From: Methanobacteriota archaeon
GTDB lineage: Archaea > Halobacteriota > Methanosarcinia > Methanosarcinales > Methanosarcinaceae
Length of the DNA stretch: 48,854 bases
Direction of reading: 5' to 3'
NCBI GenBank assembly: GCA_030054735.1
Contig: JASGVX010000063.1
Span: forward strand, 1-48,854
In this document: in pieces, positions 27,055-40,051 of the stretch
Layout: every line of letters begins with the position of its first letter
Position numbering within the stretch: the stretch's first letter is position 1
Translations under genes and position numbers: made by a program
The notes under the pieces: model-generated
The model's database searches: none
Told to the model about the DNA's origin: nothing
Seen by the model: only the letters and a program-made list of their open reading frames with translations

Positions 27055-27215
27055 CAGGCTGTCTCAAAACTCAAACCATTTCTACAATTGGATAGTGAGA
27101 ACCGTTAACTTTAAAAACATGACCACTTAAAACAGAGAAATTTAGATGTGAATTAACCTTATAGTAGAAAAAATTGACACAATTGTAGAATTAACTTTAG
27201 TTTTGAGACAGCCTG
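27055..27215. mobile_element. MITE element A, full copy inside pglX (161 bp)
   Basis: The element starts CAGGCTGTCTCAAAACT and ends with its inverted complement AGTTTTGAGACAGCCTG. Subterminal TTCTACAATTG and CAATTGTAGAA continue the inverted repeat. It is flanked by a 4-bp duplication CTGT (27051-27054 and 27216-27219). Removing the element and one CTGT joins LYT to GKYF in frame. It has no gene of its own, so it needs a transposase in trans. A second copy of the same length lies at 36355-36515. Confidence 0.92.
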
Positions 27216-29136
27216 CTGTATATAATTTTGCAATTAATTCACTCACCCAATACGCAATCGGACTCCCAGGAATCTTCTTGAAGTCGGCGGCGGAGGCGCG
27301 ATAGAACCAGCAACAATTTGAATTTTTGATGGCTTCCAGTGTTTTAGGGGATTGGTTTTCTGCTCCTCGGAAATCAGAGAGCCTAACATAGCCACCTTTA
27401 AAGTTTGAGTAATGAGCATTTTCTAAAGAAAATGTGCATACAGGAATACAGGCAGGCTCAAATGCATTATATTCAAGCTGTGCTAAACTTGTAATAGTGC
27501 AATTTTCGAGGATGTAAGAACGTAAATCTTCATAAGAAGAAATAAACATCCAAACATAAGGAGTGACAAAGACGAGCTGACCTTTTGGCAAAGTTAGCTC
27601 AATATTACGAACCATAAAGGCAGAGAACAGATCAGATTTCACATCAGCATAATTATCTTTAAGGAATGTCTTCAGCCTATTATTCATGCCTTTGCCGCCC
27701 ATATAAGGAAGATTGGCTATGACCACGTGGTATTTCGGGCTGAGGTAGTCAGCTTGTTTCAGAGCCTGCAGGACTTTCTGATGAGTTGAAAGATGGGAGA
27801 GGTTTTCAGAAAGGTTCTTCGATTCCAGCAGGTGTAAAAGATCAGATACATCCTTTGCAGCCGGACGAATAAGAGACCCAAAATTATCGGCTTCTGCGAA
27901 CTGGGACAGAGTAGCTATGTGAGCATTGGTAAAAAGCTCACTTCCAACTGCATCTATATAAGCATTGAGTTCTCCCTGCTCAAAAGTAACGTTTTCCAGC
28001 ATGCAAATATTGGGATAAACCTCTTTATTGAAAAAGCGGCGGTCTTTCCCCCTCGCCTTCATAGTCAGCGCAAAACCTGCAAGTTCCCCTGCACGCCTAT
28101 CAATCTCGATCCCGAAAAGGTTATGGGCCAGGATCATTTCCGGAATTTCGGAAGGAGTGTAGCCTTCTTCTTCGTAAATCGCATACAAGAGGTCAAAAGC
28201 ATAAACAAGCATGTGCCCCGAACCGCAGGCAGGGTCGCATATTTTGATCTCTTCCGGTGAATTAATTTTAAGAAAATCACTTTCCTGCTGTTCAGGTTTT
28301 ATATAATACTCCATCCTGTCAACAAGGCTGGATTCCGGGCGGTTGAGCATCCACAGGCGGCCCAGGGAGTTTTCAACAAGATAACGGACAATCCAGTGAG
28401 GAGTGAAAAGCTGGGTAACAGCAGGGATGTTTTCCTTGCTGATCTTAATATTCTTCTTCAGGTCAGCAAAGACTTTGTCCTTCTTTGGTGCAATATAGTA
28501 CTGGTAGATCCAGCCTATGATTTCAACTTCCTGCCAGTCTTCTTCCGGAATAATTGAGTTCAGGTCGTGCAGAACCGAGCCTGTATGGAGAAGCTTATCA
28601 GGGAAAAGGAGTTCAGTATAGTCTTCGATTTTCTCAAAGAGGAAAGGCATTATTTTGTTCAAATAATTGCAGAGCTTGAGGATCAGGTATTTGTAGAGCT
28701 CTTCGTCTTTATTTTCTGCTTTAAGGTCAAGAACTAAATCTCGGTTAAGGTTCAGGGAATCAAGTTTCAGGGCATTTGTAAGGAGGTCGGGTTCGGGTTT
28801 ATTCGGGTCGCTTGAAGTGAAAACTCTAATATGGTCTGGGAGGCAGCCGTTCATCTCCATGAACTTGAGGGCAAGAAGGCGGTTGAACCAGGTATAGGTT
28901 ACTTCTTCCATGACCTGTTCGTAGCCTTTTCCCTTAATCTGCTTCACAAGCTGAGATCTCTGGTTTTTGATTCTTGAATTAAAGACTCTGCCGTTAATAA
29001 CAACTGAATCGGCATGTTCCTCCACGGCATGGATTTCTTCAGGAAAAATTCCATAATAGGCTGCCTGGCTCCTTACTTCTGCACTTAACTTCTCCCTAAC
29101 CTTGTTTGAGAATTCGATAATTTTTGCTTTGTCCAT
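27142..29136 (-). pseudogene. pglX: N-terminal half of BREX adenine methyltransferase PglX, interrupted by a MITE
   Basis: PglX methylates adenine in BREX recognition sites to mark self DNA. I place the start at the ATG at 29134-29136 (MDKAKIIEFSNKVREKLSAEV), matching the family; an in-frame start 36 codons upstream is less likely. Motif I is CDPACGSGHMLVYAF; motif IV reads Asn-Leu-Pro-Tyr (VIANLPYMGGKG) instead of Asn-Pro-Pro-Tyr. Native coding ends at 27216; the frame then enters the MITE and stops at 27142. Without the MITE the gene 25474-29136 would encode about 1165 residues, normal for PglX. Confidence 0.9.
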
Positions 29137-29369
29137 ATTTCCAGAACCCGATTTCATTTTCCAACTGGCTGAGAAATTTATATGACTTATTATATGTGAT
29201 GGGTTTATAAGTTTTTTTAGTTTTGACCTGTTCAGGCTCTTCATTTTAATTTATCTTCCTGAAATTCGAATCAAAGGTACGGCTTTATTTGGCGGGTTCG
29301 GGTTTTATGCTAAATTTTTTTGAAAGTCGCCTGGCTGGGCGACATCTTTTATTACCTGAATTGTAATCT

Positions 29370-31789: not shown

Positions 31790-34700
31790 TCACACCCTTA
31801 TGTTCTTTTCCTTGAGGATTTCCATCAATTTATCTCTGAGCTGTGTGATATATTCCTCAACATCTGCTTCGGTTTCCATCATTTTTTCGCATCTAAAAAA
31901 TGCTATATTGCTGATAACTTCAGTATTTCTCTGAGGGATTATTGGAGGATTTGGTGTTGTTTCTACTTCCTTGCCACCATCTGCAGGTTTAATTCCCGGA
32001 GTTTCCGGGTTATCCTTATCCTTATCGTTTTTCTTGTAGGCGTTCTTTTGCTGCTCTTCCCGAATAATCTGCCTCTCCCAGTCTATCTGCCTCTCTCTGA
32101 TAGTCTGCCTCTCCCGGTCTATCTGCCTGTAAGCTTCCACCCTCTGGGAATTTATAATCTGAACCTGGCTCTGGACAAGAGCGCAGTCCTCAGCGTCTTC
32201 TATCGTTCTTTCTATCACATTGAAGAGACTGAACACTGTTTTCTTGAAGTCGTTGGAAAATATTTCGTCTGAAAGTTCCCTTTCAAACTCTTTCGTAACC
32301 AAATCAAGGTTTTCTTTGACCTCTTTTTTCCGGGCAGAAAGGGCCTCCTTAATTGCCGCTTCTATCCTCTTTTCCAGCACGGAAAGATTTTTGATCTCGG
32401 AATAGGGTTCCTTCAGGTTCAAAATTCTGTTTACTTCCTCAATATCTGCGTTTGTTTCTTTACCAAGGAACTGGATGTTTCTGGAGTAATCCCTGTACTT
32501 GTGGGCAAGCCTCCTGAAGATCTCAACCTGGGAGCTGTTAAAGAAGTTCTTCACATCCACTGCATCAGCATGCAGCTCTTTAAATTCGGTCTTTCTGGAG
32601 GCAACGGCTCTAAAAAAAGCTGAAGGGTCAGAGTTTTCTGTCAGCTCTTTCAGGAATTTCCTGTAAGCTTCTATCCGGGCTCTGCCAGGGAAGCTTCCTT
32701 CTTCTTCATATCTGCCTTCGATTACCTGCAGGGCTGAAAGCTCTTCCCCGAATATCTCCATTACTTTTTTATAGAGTTCGCCTTCTTTTTCTGGCAAGCT
32801 CAGTTTTTCAAAAAGGTCATTAAGTATCTTCTTTACGGCTTTGAGGTCCTCTTCTCCAGTCTTCTCCCTGATTTCTATGACAACTTTGTCAGCTTCATCC
32901 CTTCTTGTCAGGTATTTTGCCGTAGCACTCGCATCATTAAACAGGTACTCGGACTGATAGCGGAGTTTAATCTCTTCTCTGAGGTAAAGAATTGCCACAA
33001 GCCCTGAAATCGTCATATCTTTCCAGCCGTAGGGTTTTTTCGTGAAGCGTTCCTTTAAATCGCTTAACAGGACCCTTCCGCTTCTCCCGTACTTCAGCTG
33101 GATGTAGTCAAGCACTTCCTTTAAGGCAAGCCTGTTTATCTCACTGCCTCCGACTCCGAACCTCTCAAGGTCGTCCGAACGCAGGACTCTAAGAACTTCG
33201 CTCTCGTTTTCATAGTCCTTTGTAACATATCCGGCTTTGCTGTAAACATTCTGTATAAGGAGGTCGAGCCCTTCCTTTATGCGCTCTTTCGGGCTGGATT
33301 TATCAGGGGTTACTTCCTTATTGTCAACAAACACCCTTGAATCCGAAACGCCTTTCTGGACCAGATCCAGGGTTTTTGCTCTTGCACTGTTAGCATTCTG
33401 CTGCTTTGTGGAAAGAATATTCTGGATTTCCACGTTGTTCCGGTTTGAGGAGTTCTGCTTGAGGTATTTATCTATTTTCAGATATGACCTGATCTGGTCG
33501 ATTAATTCGTCTTCCGGGAGTATGAAAAGCAGAGTATCCGTTGAATCAATAATGCTTAAATTTTCACCGCTCAGGGACTTCTGGCTTCCTTTTTTACTGC
33601 AATAATGGTCTGAAAGAGGGGTCAGGAACTTGATTGTAAGGTCTGCACCAGAGACGGCTTTTACCCTATCATCAATAGCTTTGTTAAACTTGTATTCCTT
33701 ATAAGAAGCCTGGCAGATCCCCTGTTTCTGATCATAAAGCATCGTATGGATTTCTTCAAGAATCTGATGATCTTCGATTTCTACTCTTTTGATGTCCTTG
33801 TTAATCTCCTGTTCCACATTTGTCAGGAAATAGTACTTATCTTCGGACTTGCTTATCAGGGTCTGGTCTTCGAGCTTTCTCAGGGACTCAACGATTCTTT
33901 CTTTTAGTTTGAGCTTATCTTCATCAACCGAGGAAATGGAGAGCACTATCAGGTTATCGAGGTTCGGCTCAATTTCCGGAATGCCCCTGATCATAAACAG
34001 GATTTCCAGAAGTTCGCAGTCATTATCATTAAGAAAATCATTCTTCCGAGCATGAGAAATTGTTCTTGCGATGATAGGGTCAAGGAAGCCTTCAATAGTC
34101 TCATAGAAGGCATGGAAAGGAATTAACATCCCTACATTATTCTCGCAGTAGTTCTCAGTCGACTCCTTAAAGGCGCTGAGCATCGACCTTTCCCCTTTTG
34201 CCAGGTGCTTGCCCGTAAATCCGGTTTCTCTAATCCTGTCAAAGACCTTCTGCACAAGGTTGAACTGATAGGGGACAAAAGGATATACATTTACGAAGTC
34301 TTTTTCGTTCTTGTAGACCTTTATTTCAGCACGGTTTGAAAACGCAAGCAAATTTCTGAGTATTGTTTGCTTTTCCGCGTAGTATGAAGCAAGAACATCT
34401 CTGTACTCCTCTTTCTTATTCAGGATTCTCTTCTTGATAACTTCATCAACGTTGGCACTGGTAAGTGCCAGCCGGGTGTTAAAACGTCCCTGAATTTTAG
34501 AGAAGTCGTAGCCCTTTACATTTTCTTTTGTAACAGTATCAATGTCAGCCTGCGAAGTAACCACAACCCAGGCTTTTCCCATGAGTTTAGTCCCGAGATC
34601 TTCAACAATGGTCTGAAGATTAAGCATCAGCTCGCTATTTTCTCCGATGTACTGCCCCACTTCATCCACCAGAAAAATTACCTGATGGTCTTTTCCTTTC

Positions 34701-35464
34701 GACATGCAGTACTTATCGAGCTTACTTGCAAATTTCTCAACGCTAAAAGTAAAACTTGCTCCATCGCTTTCAAAAAGCCTTGAAGCAGCTTCCCTGGTCA
34801 TAGAGCCGCAGTTTGCAAGGGCTTCTATAATGTCGTCCTGCTCAAAACTGTATGCGACTCTTCTTTCTACCCAGGGGTCTCCATTTATGCGCTCAAACTC
34901 GGCTTTGAAAGGTTCGTAAAGTCCTTTTTCCTCAAGCTGTTCTTCAAGTTCTGCGATCCAGAAAACATCTCCCAGGTACCCTCTCATATCATTAAAAGCC
35001 CTCATGAAGATGTTTACAATCTGCTCGTCGCCCTTGTTTGCCGTATTTGCTTTGGAATCAATATTAAAGAGAATAACATCTTTAGTGCCTGTAGTAACGG
35101 CTTTCTCGATATTGGCAAAAATAGAAGGGTCTGTTATTTTTTCCCTGAAAAATTCGAGTGCTGTCTTCCCACGGACCTCTCTATTCGCCAGTAAATACGA
35201 CAAAATTTTGAGGAAATGTGATTTTCCTGAACCAAAGAACCCTGAGATCCAGACTCCTATTCTATCTGTGGGTTCTTCAAGTGCTTCAGCATAATTTCTG
35301 AAAAATATATCAAAATGCTTTCGGGATTCCCCTGTTACCACATACTCATCAAGTTCGGTATAGACGCTCCTTTCGTCTTCCTGATCAACCTTTATTACCC
35401 CATTGATATCCCTTCGGATATCTTTTTCGAATAAATCTTCTATTTTTATTTCTGTGGCTGTCAT
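31790..35464 (-). CDS. brxC: BREX ATPase BrxC
   Basis: BrxC is the large AAA+ ATPase core protein of BREX type 1. The protein starts MTATEIKIEDLFEKDIRRDINGVIKVDQ, as in the family (ATG at 35462-35464; a GTG three codons earlier is possible). It has about 1224 residues, the usual length. Walker A is GFFGSGKSH near residue 75-83, and Walker B is HQVIFLVDEVGQYIG. The C-terminal half is rich in coiled coil and ends with a Gln/Arg-repeat stretch (RQTIRERQIDWERQIIREEQQ). The frame is intact with no sign of decay, unlike pglX and pglZ. It follows brxB after about 120 bp. Confidence 0.93.
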   Translation of the reverse strand: MTATEIKIEDLFEKDIRRDINGVIKVDQEDERSVYTELDEYVVTGESRKHFDIFFRNYAEALEEPTDRIGVWISGFFGSGKSHFLKILSYLLANREVRGKTALEFFREKITDPSIFANIEKAVTTGTKDVILFNIDSKANTANKGDEQIVNIFMRAFNDMRGYLGDVFWIAELEEQLEEKGLYEPFKAEFERINGDPWVERRVAYSFEQDDIIEALANCGSMTREAASRLFESDGASFTFSVEKFASKLDKYCMSKGKDHQVIFLVDEVGQYIGENSELMLNLQTIVEDLGTKLMGKAWVVVTSQADIDTVTKENVKGYDFSKIQGRFNTRLALTSANVDEVIKKRILNKKEEYRDVLASYYAEKQTILRNLLAFSNRAEIKVYKNEKDFVNVYPFVPYQFNLVQKVFDRIRETGFTGKHLAKGERSMLSAFKESTENYCENNVGMLIPFHAFYETIEGFLDPIIARTISHARKNDFLNDNDCELLEILFMIRGIPEIEPNLDNLIVLSISSVDEDKLKLKERIVESLRKLEDQTLISKSEDKYYFLTNVEQEINKDIKRVEIEDHQILEEIHTMLYDQKQGICQASYKEYKFNKAIDDRVKAVSGADLTIKFLTPLSDHYCSKKGSQKSLSGENLSIIDSTDTLLFILPEDELIDQIRSYLKIDKYLKQNSSNRNNVEIQNILSTKQQNANSARAKTLDLVQKGVSDSRVFVDNKEVTPDKSSPKERIKEGLDLLIQNVYSKAGYVTKDYENESEVLRVLRSDDLERFGVGGSEINRLALKEVLDYIQLKYGRSGRVLLSDLKERFTKKPYGWKDMTISGLVAILYLREEIKLRYQSEYLFNDASATAKYLTRRDEADKVVIEIREKTGEEDLKAVKKILNDLFEKLSLPEKEGELYKKVMEIFGEELSALQVIEGRYEEEGSFPGRARIEAYRKFLKELTENSDPSAFFRAVASRKTEFKELHADAVDVKNFFNSSQVEIFRRLAHKYRDYSRNIQFLGKETNADIEEVNRILNLKEPYSEIKNLSVLEKRIEAAIKEALSARKKEVKENLDLVTKEFERELSDEIFSNDFKKTVFSLFNVIERTIEDAEDCALVQSQVQIINSQRVEAYRQIDRERQTIRERQIDWERQIIREEQQKNAYKKNDKDKDNPETPGIKPADGGKEVETTPNPPIIPQRNTEVISNIAFFRCEKMMETEADVEEYITQLRDKLMEILKEKNIRV

Positions 35465-35583
35465 GTTTAGCACTCTGAACTATTAGTTTGAATTGGGTTT
35501 CTATATAAGTTAAATTTAATTTTCTGAAAGTTATCTGAAAACTTAAAACTCCCCTATTACAGTAATCCTGAGAATTTCTAAAA

Positions 35584-36156
35584 TTATATTGCTTCTGGCA
35601 TCAAGCGAAAAGCTCTGTAGTAGTTCTTGCTTTTGAATTCACCAAATAAGCTCAGGTCAAGCCCGCTGTACTTTCCAGGATAAAACATCACAAGAGGCTT
35701 TTTTCCCGTCACTGAATGAAGGTTATTAAGGACGGAATGAGCTCTGACAAATGGCCACGCATTTCCCACTCCAGTCAGAAAAATAATGTCGTAGTCTCCC
35801 TGAAGTATTCCAGCTATTTCTTTTTTTGTGACTTCCTGGTTAAGAATTAATCTTATCTTCTCAAGTAAGACATCTGAGCCCTTTTTCTTTTCAAACTGGA
35901 TTATTTTTTCATCGCTAAGCTTCTGACTCAGAATTTTGAGACACAAATCGTACAGGTTAATCTCAATTATTTTTAGAGAATATTTGGTCTTAAAGCCTGT
36001 AACCATCTTTTCAATTGTGTCTCTGACCAGAAGCTCTTTTTCGGGCTCATAATCAAATATCCAGTATGGGATCTCATTTCCCAACCCCTTACATTCTAGA
36101 AAATCCTTTGTTTTTATTTTTTCTTTAAAGAGTTCCAGACGCTCTTCGAGTTTCAT
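35584..36156 (-). CDS. brxB: BREX protein BrxB (DUF1788)
   Basis: BrxB is a small conserved core component of BREX type 1, with unresolved biochemical role. The 190 residues match the DUF1788 family: an N-terminal LEERLELFKEKI helix, PYWIFDYEPEKELLVRDTIEKM, a DIIFLTGVGNAWPFVRAHSVLNNLHS segment and a C-terminal KPLVMFYPGKYSGLDLSLFGEFKSKNYYRAFRL tail. It is complete. The preceding gene in a normal BREX operon, brxA, is absent: 36157-36354 carries no recognisable reading frame and then a MITE and transposase fragments begin. Confidence 0.92.
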   Translation of the reverse strand: MKLEERLELFKEKIKTKDFLECKGLGNEIPYWIFDYEPEKELLVRDTIEKMVTGFKTKYSLKIIEINLYDLCLKILSQKLSDEKIIQFEKKKGSDVLLEKIRLILNQEVTKKEIAGILQGDYDIIFLTGVGNAWPFVRAHSVLNNLHSVTGKKPLVMFYPGKYSGLDLSLFGEFKSKNYYRAFRLMPEAI

Positions 36157-36659: not shown

Positions 36660-36926
36660 TTATTTAACTGTCAAAGTCAGGTTGTTAAGATGGTAGCGTA
36701 GAGATGTTTCGCAAGCAACATTTTCATACTGTTTAGAGACTAAGTGGACAGAATGTTTGTTGACTGCCATATTCAGAACAGTACGAAGGATGTTTTCACA
36801 TGTGAGAGAACCGTTGATCTTGATAGTTACATGATCTTTGAGAGGTTGTAACACAGCATCAATACATTCTTTTGACCTTAATTCGATTTTTGAACCATAT
36901 CTAGATTTAGATGTGAAAAGAGACAT
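36660..36926 (-). pseudogene. N-terminal fragment of another transposase (ISH3-like)
   Basis: An 88-residue frame contains LQPLKDHVTIKINGSL, and YENVACETSLRYHLNNL near the end. This looks like the N-terminal region of ISH3-type archaeal transposases, which lack similarity to the next fragment. The catalytic DDE part is absent. Together with the fragment at 36517 it marks the border between the BREX locus and the RiPP island. Confidence 0.45.
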
Positions 36927-37009: not shown

Positions 37010-37969
37010 TTATATGTTATTTGATATTAATTGGCTAATTTGATGGATAATACTCTCTTTTGCTCGCTGTTGACGCAAAATAGTCAACAATATAAAGTTT
37101 TCACCTTCTTTAATAAATCCGTTTAGAAAAGGATTATTAATATTTAAAATATTAGATTGAGCTCGATAAAGATAGTCTAGACTTTTTTTTGCTATATTTT
37201 CAGCAATGTCTGTGCAGAGGATTATCCTTTCAAACTCTTCAATATTATTGATTTTTTCATACATATCATGACTTTGAATTATTTCCATCAAAAAGAAACT
37301 AAAATTTTCATTTTTAAGATCGTCTTTCCAATCTTTTATATCATCAATAAGTTGCATGCTAATGTGATAATTTTCAAGAAATAAATTCAGGTCATTGAGA
37401 TAATTTTGATTTAAGTTTTTAGGACATAGACAAGTAAAAACAATATTGTTAATTTTTAGAGGAGAGAATTTATTCCCAAGAGCTTTTATATCTTTTTCCG
37501 AATATACATTCATCGATTTCATATGGTCTTTTTCCCATAAAATGCAATGAATGTAATCCCCGTAGATCTTCAGTACATTTCTATTAAAAGTAGTCCCTAA
37601 TTTTTTCATTAATTCGCCAAGCTGTAATGTTGCCTTTAATAAAAAATAATCAGAGTAAATAATATTTCTGTAAAGGTCATCCTGAGAGAGTTTTTTGTCT
37701 ATAATGTCATCTTGGACAAATATATGATAACTGAACCACAGGTTAAACTTTACTAATTCTTCTACAACCTCTTTTTTCCTTGGAATTTCAAAATTATAAC
37801 TCAACCAAAATGGGTAATATAAGTGAAAATCTAAGGGGACTCGATTTGGTTCAGTTCCTCTACTCCTTAGTAGTAACATAATTTCTTCTTTAAAACGGGG
37901 TTCTATTTCATTCAACTCTGATTGAATTATATCCATAAGACATGGAGCAAATTTTTTCCTTATATCCAT
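37010..37969 (-). CDS. Class I isoprenoid-synthase-fold protein of the RiPP locus (ComQ-like candidate)
   Basis: The 319-residue, mainly helical protein has both aspartate-rich motifs of trans-isoprenyl diphosphate synthases: Asp-Asp-Ile-Ile-Asp at residues 87-91 (FVQDDIIDKK) and Asp-Asp-Ile-Lys-Asp at 209-213 (QLIDDIKDWKDD). These bind Mg2+ and a prenyl diphosphate. The N-terminal and middle regions differ from housekeeping GGPP/FPP synthases, so it is probably specialised. Its ATG lies inside the end of the radical SAM gene (10-bp overlap), so the two are translationally coupled. By analogy with ComQ, which prenylates the ComX peptide, it could attach an isoprenoid to the precursor; it could instead make a free terpenoid. 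The gene is AT-rich relative to housekeeping neighbours. Confidence 0.72.
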   Translation of the reverse strand: MDIRKKFAPCLMDIIQSELNEIEPRFKEEIMLLLRSRGTEPNRVPLDFHLYYPFWLSYNFEIPRKKEVVEELVKFNLWFSYHIFVQDDIIDKKLSQDDLYRNIIYSDYFLLKATLQLGELMKKLGTTFNRNVLKIYGDYIHCILWEKDHMKSMNVYSEKDIKALGNKFSPLKINNIVFTCLCPKNLNQNYLNDLNLFLENYHISMQLIDDIKDWKDDLKNENFSFFLMEIIQSHDMYEKINNIEEFERIILCTDIAENIAKKSLDYLYRAQSNILNINNPFLNGFIKEGENFILLTILRQQRAKESIIHQISQLISNNI

Positions 37970-39623: not shown

Positions 39624-39788
39624 GCAGAGGAGTACTTCCAATTAATAAACTTCTTTAGAGTGAAGCTTACGAAAGAGATTGACTCAGAAGTTACCCCAAT
39701 TCGGATTCATTATAATTTTTCTTAATATGAAGTTGCAGAAACCGGTGTTTACAATTATTATTGTTTTCTTGTACAAATTAATTCATTT

Positions 39789-40022: not shown

Positions 40023-40051
40023 TACTATTTTCCTCCACTCTTAAACAACGA

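Follow-up and report, generated by a model that had tools for sequence, protein, structure and literature searches.

We conclude that the 319-aa protein described here, encoded in the window (a 48,854-nucleotide stretch of a Methanosarcina contig), is probably a peptide prenyltransferase with a trans-isoprenyl-diphosphate-synthase (trans-IDS) fold, its distant relatives being PalQ and the prenyltransferase portion of ChrPC-like fusion proteins. The proposed catalytic role is based on homology, the predicted fold, the motif pattern, gene pairing and the absence of isopentenyl diphosphate (IPP)-site motifs. The enzyme is best filed as a variant rather than as PalQ proper, since its presumed substrate does not offer the C-terminal Trp that is the acceptor of PalQ as characterised.

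An earlier sequence-only reading of this DNA had described the gene product as carrying the motifs DDIID at residues 87–91 and DDIKD at residues 209–213; both its coordinates and its motif positions are right, and the open reading frame (ORF) is on the minus strand. It had also proposed translational coupling to a peptide maturase gene, and the 10-base overlap with the radical SAM gene confirms this. The features of the gene set are collected in Table 1.

Table 1. Features of the peptide gene set and its flank (positions are those of the window)
Feature	Position	Strand	Remarks
ISH3-family transposase fragment (mobility trace) adjoining the cluster	36660..36926	-	E 3.5e-5 over the first 41 model positions
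Candidate trans-IDS-like peptide prenyltransferase, 319 aa	37010..37969	-	ATG start; D87/D91 and D209/D213 metal motifs; Q206 before second motif
Overlap of radical SAM gene end and prenyltransferase gene start, 10 bases, ATGGATATAA	37960..37969	-	
Radical SAM/SPASM peptide maturase, 450 aa	37960..39312	-	TTG start; best NCBIfam model is PapB-type ranthipeptide maturase (below cut-off)
Os1348/NHLP-clan precursor peptide, 77 aa	39789..40022	-	NCBIfam match; core tail SGCSYHLCG
GGAGG ribosome-binding site	40032..40036	-	Nine bases 5′ of precursor ATG; read from sequence

All three genes lie on the same strand and have intact frames, and the precursor and radical SAM genes are preceded by good ribosome-binding sites. 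The precursor scores 41.2 bits against the NCBIfam model NF038399 (Os1348/NHLP clan), above the cut-off of 40. The radical SAM protein scores 266.9 bits against NF047865 (PapB ranthipeptide maturase), whose cut-off is 340, and is thus related to that group without being a member of it. Neither a transporter nor a dedicated protease was found near the gene set. A 30-aa ORF with a TTG start (39684–39776, minus strand), which lies just downstream of the precursor, ends in ...MNPNWGNF; no other small ORF in the interval up to the radical SAM gene has Trp so close to its end. It has neither a leader nor a clear ribosome-binding site and is probably a chance occurrence.

The window enzyme has no match in Pfam or NCBIfam, nor among PDB sequences searched with phmmer, and pattern searches with the window protein alone retrieved nothing from genome contigs or viral contigs. 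The family became visible only through a homologue in Ca. Methanoxibalbensis ujae (23% identity, E 1.9e-14), the one homologue in 295 surveyed genomes of the phylum. With this homologue as the query, plasmid records yielded an enzyme of Paenibacillus cellulosilyticus, followed by five tandem NHLP-type precursors, and an enzyme of Tolypothrix, followed by an annotated Os1348 peptide. Rhizobium matches from the same search were short, and one that was opened falls in an unrelated ORF. Finally, a scan with a four-sequence profile returned 80 loci, mostly from Paenibacillus and Cohnella, the remainder coming from Chloroflexota, Bacteroidota, Cyanobacteriota, Acidobacteriota, Eremiobacterota, Thermodesulfobacteriota, Berkelbacteria and Aenigmatarchaeota. 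A profile built from 66 Paenibacillus/Cohnella-group enzymes alone matches the window protein with 52.3 bits (5.7e-14) at about 15–20% identity, and the best single match in pairwise comparison is a Bacteroidetes protein (27% over 287 residues, 4e-26). Among weak archaeal matches to the family profile, L099 proved to be a canonical geranylgeranyl diphosphate (GGPP) synthase once opened; L101 and L102, weaker matches, fall in the family of L099. L100 (1124–2440, minus strand) encodes a different, diverged protein of 438 aa, which carries the motif DDLTDF and may be a further example of a diverged class I isoprenoid-synthase-like protein.

Among characterised enzymes, the nearest is PalQ of Paenibacillus alvei, which has the trans-IDS fold and attaches a prenyl group to the C-terminal Trp of PalX, an NHLP precursor with the core DNVRRFFW (PMC10853753). 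PalQ carries D89/D93, D200/D204 and Q197, the last of which (Q206 in the window enzyme) was proposed to read the indole NH; only Trp was accepted among the residues tested, and PalQ clusters are equally small, with three genes (PMC10853753). A review groups ComQ, ChrPC and PalQ as trans-IDS-like prenyltransferases and gives Trp as the acceptor of every characterised one (PMC13290415); such enzymes are reported from bacteria. The precursor tails of P. cellulosilyticus (ENVRKFVWI and ENVRKYNWL) indicate, as far as sequence goes, that the Paenibacillus loci found are of the PalQ/PalX kind. The window enzyme belongs to the same homologous group by a profile that consists of Paenibacillus/Cohnella-group enzymes and does not include P. 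alvei PalQ itself. It shares with PalQ the trans-IDS fold, both Asp motifs and a Gln three residues before the second one, with matching spacing, and it likewise stands in a very small gene cluster with an NHLP-clan precursor, although this precursor is one gene further off than usual. It differs from the PalQ/PalX system in its archaeal host, in a precursor devoid of Trp and in the presence of a radical SAM enzyme in the set. It also differs from the PalQ group four residues before the first Asp motif: position 83 is Ile in the window enzyme and Val in both of the other archaeal members, whereas 38 of 50 bacterial members have Phe or Tyr there.

Two other known systems resemble the window locus less. 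The window protein is in the same prenyltransferase-domain family as the ChrPC-type fusion enzymes (PMC13290415), to which the fusion loci found here are likened by described architecture alone, but neither the protein nor the gene set contains a cyclase domain, and the leader type is different. In four fusion proteins (L073, L085, L087 and L094), the family domain is joined to a squalene-hopene-cyclase-like domain, and several fusion loci also contain radical SAM genes and Cys-rich precursors. At L065 (1386–6605) and L086 (7145–13129), two adjoining large genes, each with a PalQ-like domain, have as neighbours a radical SAM gene and several Cys-rich precursors whose leader reads EELExRLE; outside the PalQ-like domain, these large proteins show no Pfam domain (searched in L065). 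With ComQ/ComX of Bacillus the window pair shares an isoprenyl-synthase-fold enzyme, the first Asp motif and a peptide partner. However, ComQ reportedly lacks the second Asp motif (PMC10853753), which is present in the window enzyme, and ComX is modified at an internal Trp and has no NHLP leader, whereas the window partner is a Trp-free peptide of the NHLP clan. With an intact second motif and a partner without Trp, the window enzyme does not fit the ComQ family (IPR033965), judged here by its description, and a ComQ orthologue is not supported. The original proposal of a ComQ-like peptide prenyltransferase thus stands in its second half, for which comparative genomics gives strong support, while PalQ takes the place of ComQ.

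The pairing of enzyme and precursor is more than chance, since the window precursor passes the NCBIfam cut-off and the same pairing recurs in dozens of unrelated genomes. After one duplicate had been removed, the analysis covered 82 loci that encode a family member; precursor-like ORFs were identified with HMMs that match no reversed decoys. A leader-type (NHLP/Os1348) precursor is present in 67 of these loci. Of the 65 bacterial ones among these, 62 have it downstream of the enzyme gene, at a distance of no more than 200 bp and on the same strand. The window arrangement, where the radical SAM gene and a further 476 bases separate the precursor from the prenyltransferase gene, departs from this pattern and counts against our reading. 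Trp occurs within the last four residues of 81 out of 88 precursors, compared to 5.3% of the other small ORFs of the same loci. Three further precursors have Trp within 10–17 residues of the end; two more exceptions look like artefacts of ORF calling, that of L082 being apparently mis-framed and that of L026 truncated by a contig end. The only precursors of the 88 with no Trp at all are those of the window and of Ca. Methanoxibalbensis, and both have Cys and Tyr near the C-terminus. Two Cys-rich precursors of L065 (fusion group), which are outside this count, also lack Trp; their leader is of another type and the contig is short.

The window precursor, which is 35% identical to that of Methanoxibalbensis over 57 residues, ends in ...VGNSEDSGCSYHLCG. 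The core had been described as lacking Trp, which holds for the whole 77-aa peptide; candidate nucleophiles are Cys71, Tyr73, His74 and Cys76. That Cys, Tyr or His would be the acceptor, as had been suggested, follows from the lack of Trp provided that this peptide is the substrate of the enzyme; the suggestion is made more pointed by the C-terminal Trp of the bacterial precursors, which neither archaeal peptide has. A CxYxLC likeness between the window core (GCSYHLCG) and a Syntrophobacteria precursor (HCLYYLCT) is too short to weigh.

The absence of Trp from both archaeal precursors is itself an argument against peptide prenylation here, given the exclusive use of Trp by PalQ among tested residues. 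The enzyme might instead prenylate another acceptor, be it a free amino acid, a small molecule or a Trp peptide encoded elsewhere: the window precursor lacks the residue used by the bacterial family, yet Q206, the counterpart of the proposed indole reader, is retained, and the related enzyme Ord1 farnesylates free tryptophan. We consider this unlikely. A similarity search of the host with the precursor found no second leader-type peptide, so that the sole one detected is within the gene set; Methanoxibalbensis repeats the pairing with another Trp-free peptide; and its enzyme has Asp in place of Q206, i.e., the indole-reading network is not kept. A Gln before the second Asp motif is also usual in canonical synthases and therefore does not discriminate, which weakens it as a point in favour of peptide prenylation.

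In the family alignment, the window enzyme keeps D87, D91, K167, K172, Q206, D209, D213, W214 and D217; across the scanned loci, conservation of the second motif is in part a product of the scan pattern, which lowers its weight for our reading, while that of the other positions is not. Its AlphaFold2 model (pLDDT 91.5) has the all-alpha trans-prenyl-synthase fold, superimposing on 4lob with Z 23.8 and 2.5 Å over 274 residues. No small bacterial terpene cyclase is among the structure-comparison matches listed for the model, which proves nothing. Since the protein does not match PF00348 at E < 1, the label "isoprenoid synthase" given to the gene by the sequence-only reading is based on the motifs, family profile and predicted fold. 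Neither the window protein nor any of 36 family members tested has the IPP-site motifs GKRxRP, RRG (behind the first Asp motif) and GK (behind the second); the GGPP synthase of the host has all three.

In the phylogenetic tree, the family is split from GGPP synthases at 100/100, so the window protein does not fall with the housekeeping enzymes, the phylogenetic outcome that had been named as fatal to the peptide hypothesis. Its branch is long (2.3 changes per site) and its placement within the family weak, which tells against our reading; a weak grouping (80/76) unites it with Methanoxibalbensis, a Bacteroidetes member, an Aenigmatarchaeota/Berkelbacteria pair and the fusion group. Three Chloroflexota loci (L067, L074 and L092) and the Tolypothrix plasmid (L013) form a separate clade, in which VLLDH replaces QxxDD at the second motif and the Os1348-type precursors retain Trp (tails ...SFSFW and ...GLTFW).

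The fold and both Asp-rich motifs are also those of class I terpene cyclases and of prenyl diphosphate synthases, the canonical trans-prenyl diphosphate synthases included, so that the protein might be such a cyclase, or a diverged synthase, and produce a free isoprenoid, perhaps the donor for another enzyme. We regard this as distinctly improbable: the protein differs from canonical synthases in lacking the IPP-site motifs and a PF00348 match and in its separate branch, there is no second prenyltransferase in the cluster, and its relatives lie beside precursor peptides, one enzyme of the type (PalQ) being a proven peptide prenyltransferase. A housekeeping GGPP synthase is ruled out by the same absences, by the tree and by the two canonical prenyl synthases (PF00348 matches) that the host encodes elsewhere in its genome, one of which closely resembles protein 3ipi of Methanosarcina mazei (562 bits over 285 aa).

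The RiPP cluster of Ca. Methanoxibalbensis (L008, 6676–17649) shares with the window the trio of an Os1348 precursor (75.5 bits), a radical SAM/SPASM enzyme, 33% identical to that of the window, and a PalQ-like homologue. It also contains a PqqD/metalloprotease gene related to daptide enzymes, a YcaO gene and a geranylgeranyl-reductase-family flavoprotein, which might saturate the attached prenyl chain. A third archaeal member (L060, 5145–8984) comes from an Aenigmatarchaeota metagenome-assembled genome; it lies about 2 kb downstream of prenyl diphosphate synthase pieces, and no precursor was found up to the contig end. A genome of the same genus as the host (L010, 7237–13765) has an NHLP-like precursor (match G020:C146:20214-20372, L006) and a radical SAM/SPASM gene without a prenyltransferase; close by are a nicotianamine-synthase-like gene and two more genes for radical SAM enzymes, one of which has a B12-binding domain.

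The three window genes have a GC content of 28–32%, against about 39–46% in the left flank and 34–38% in the right. The enzyme gene is missing from 99 other relatives examined, 30 of them of the same genus; the PRPP synthetase on the same contig is 80–93% identical across the genus and, together with the likeness of the host prenyl synthase to 3ipi, assigns the contig to a Methanosarcina. Low GC, absence from relatives and the adjoining ISH3-like remnant make a horizontally transferred island the natural reading. BREX-type genes (BrxC, 31790–35473, and BrxB, 35584–36156, minus strand) and an Eco57I-like methylase gene (27142–29244, minus strand) follow immediately on the downstream side of the peptide gene set, which places the island inside a defence locus. 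That the set is decayed or inactive after transfer, as the transposase remnant, the restricted occurrence, the long branch and the lack of a nearby transporter or dedicated protease could suggest, is very improbable in view of its three intact frames, the good ribosome-binding sites of the precursor and radical SAM genes, the full complement of catalytic residues and the equally small three-gene clusters of PalQ.

For a peptide prenyltransferase, we propose the following pathway. The NHLP-clan leader of the 77-aa precursor would dock the maturation enzymes, and the radical SAM/SPASM enzyme would modify the core SGCSYHLCG, a thioether that involves Cys71 and/or Cys76 being the most likely product. 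Using D87/D91 and D209/D213 together with Mg2+, the prenyltransferase would bind an allylic diphosphate and then transfer the prenyl group to Tyr73, a remaining Cys or His74, both this order of steps and the acceptor being provisional, after which a host protease would free the lipidated, cross-linked peptide. The donor is probably C15–C20, because archaea are rich in GGPP and a smaller residue (Ile) occupies position 83. By analogy with the way chain length is controlled in farnesyl diphosphate synthases, the smaller residue suggests room for a longer donor.

An open literature search, incomplete in its coverage, returned no report of prenylated archaeal RiPPs. We put at about even the chance that the window encodes both the first archaeal peptide prenyltransferase and the first one of trans-IDS fold with a non-Trp acceptor (Tyr, Cys or His), and that this enzyme works alongside a radical SAM enzyme so that methanogens and methane-oxidising archaea produce a cross-linked, lipidated peptide. 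Given the same trio and Trp-free cores at two archaeal loci, this enzyme class would reach into a second domain of life, and the acceptor rules of trans-IDS-like peptide prenyltransferases would become directly testable. Fusion-type relatives with radical SAM genes in several bacterial phyla point to a larger set of peptides that undergo both radical SAM modification and prenylation. If made by methanogens or ANME archaea, lipidated peptides would be a new kind of molecule to seek in anaerobic communities.
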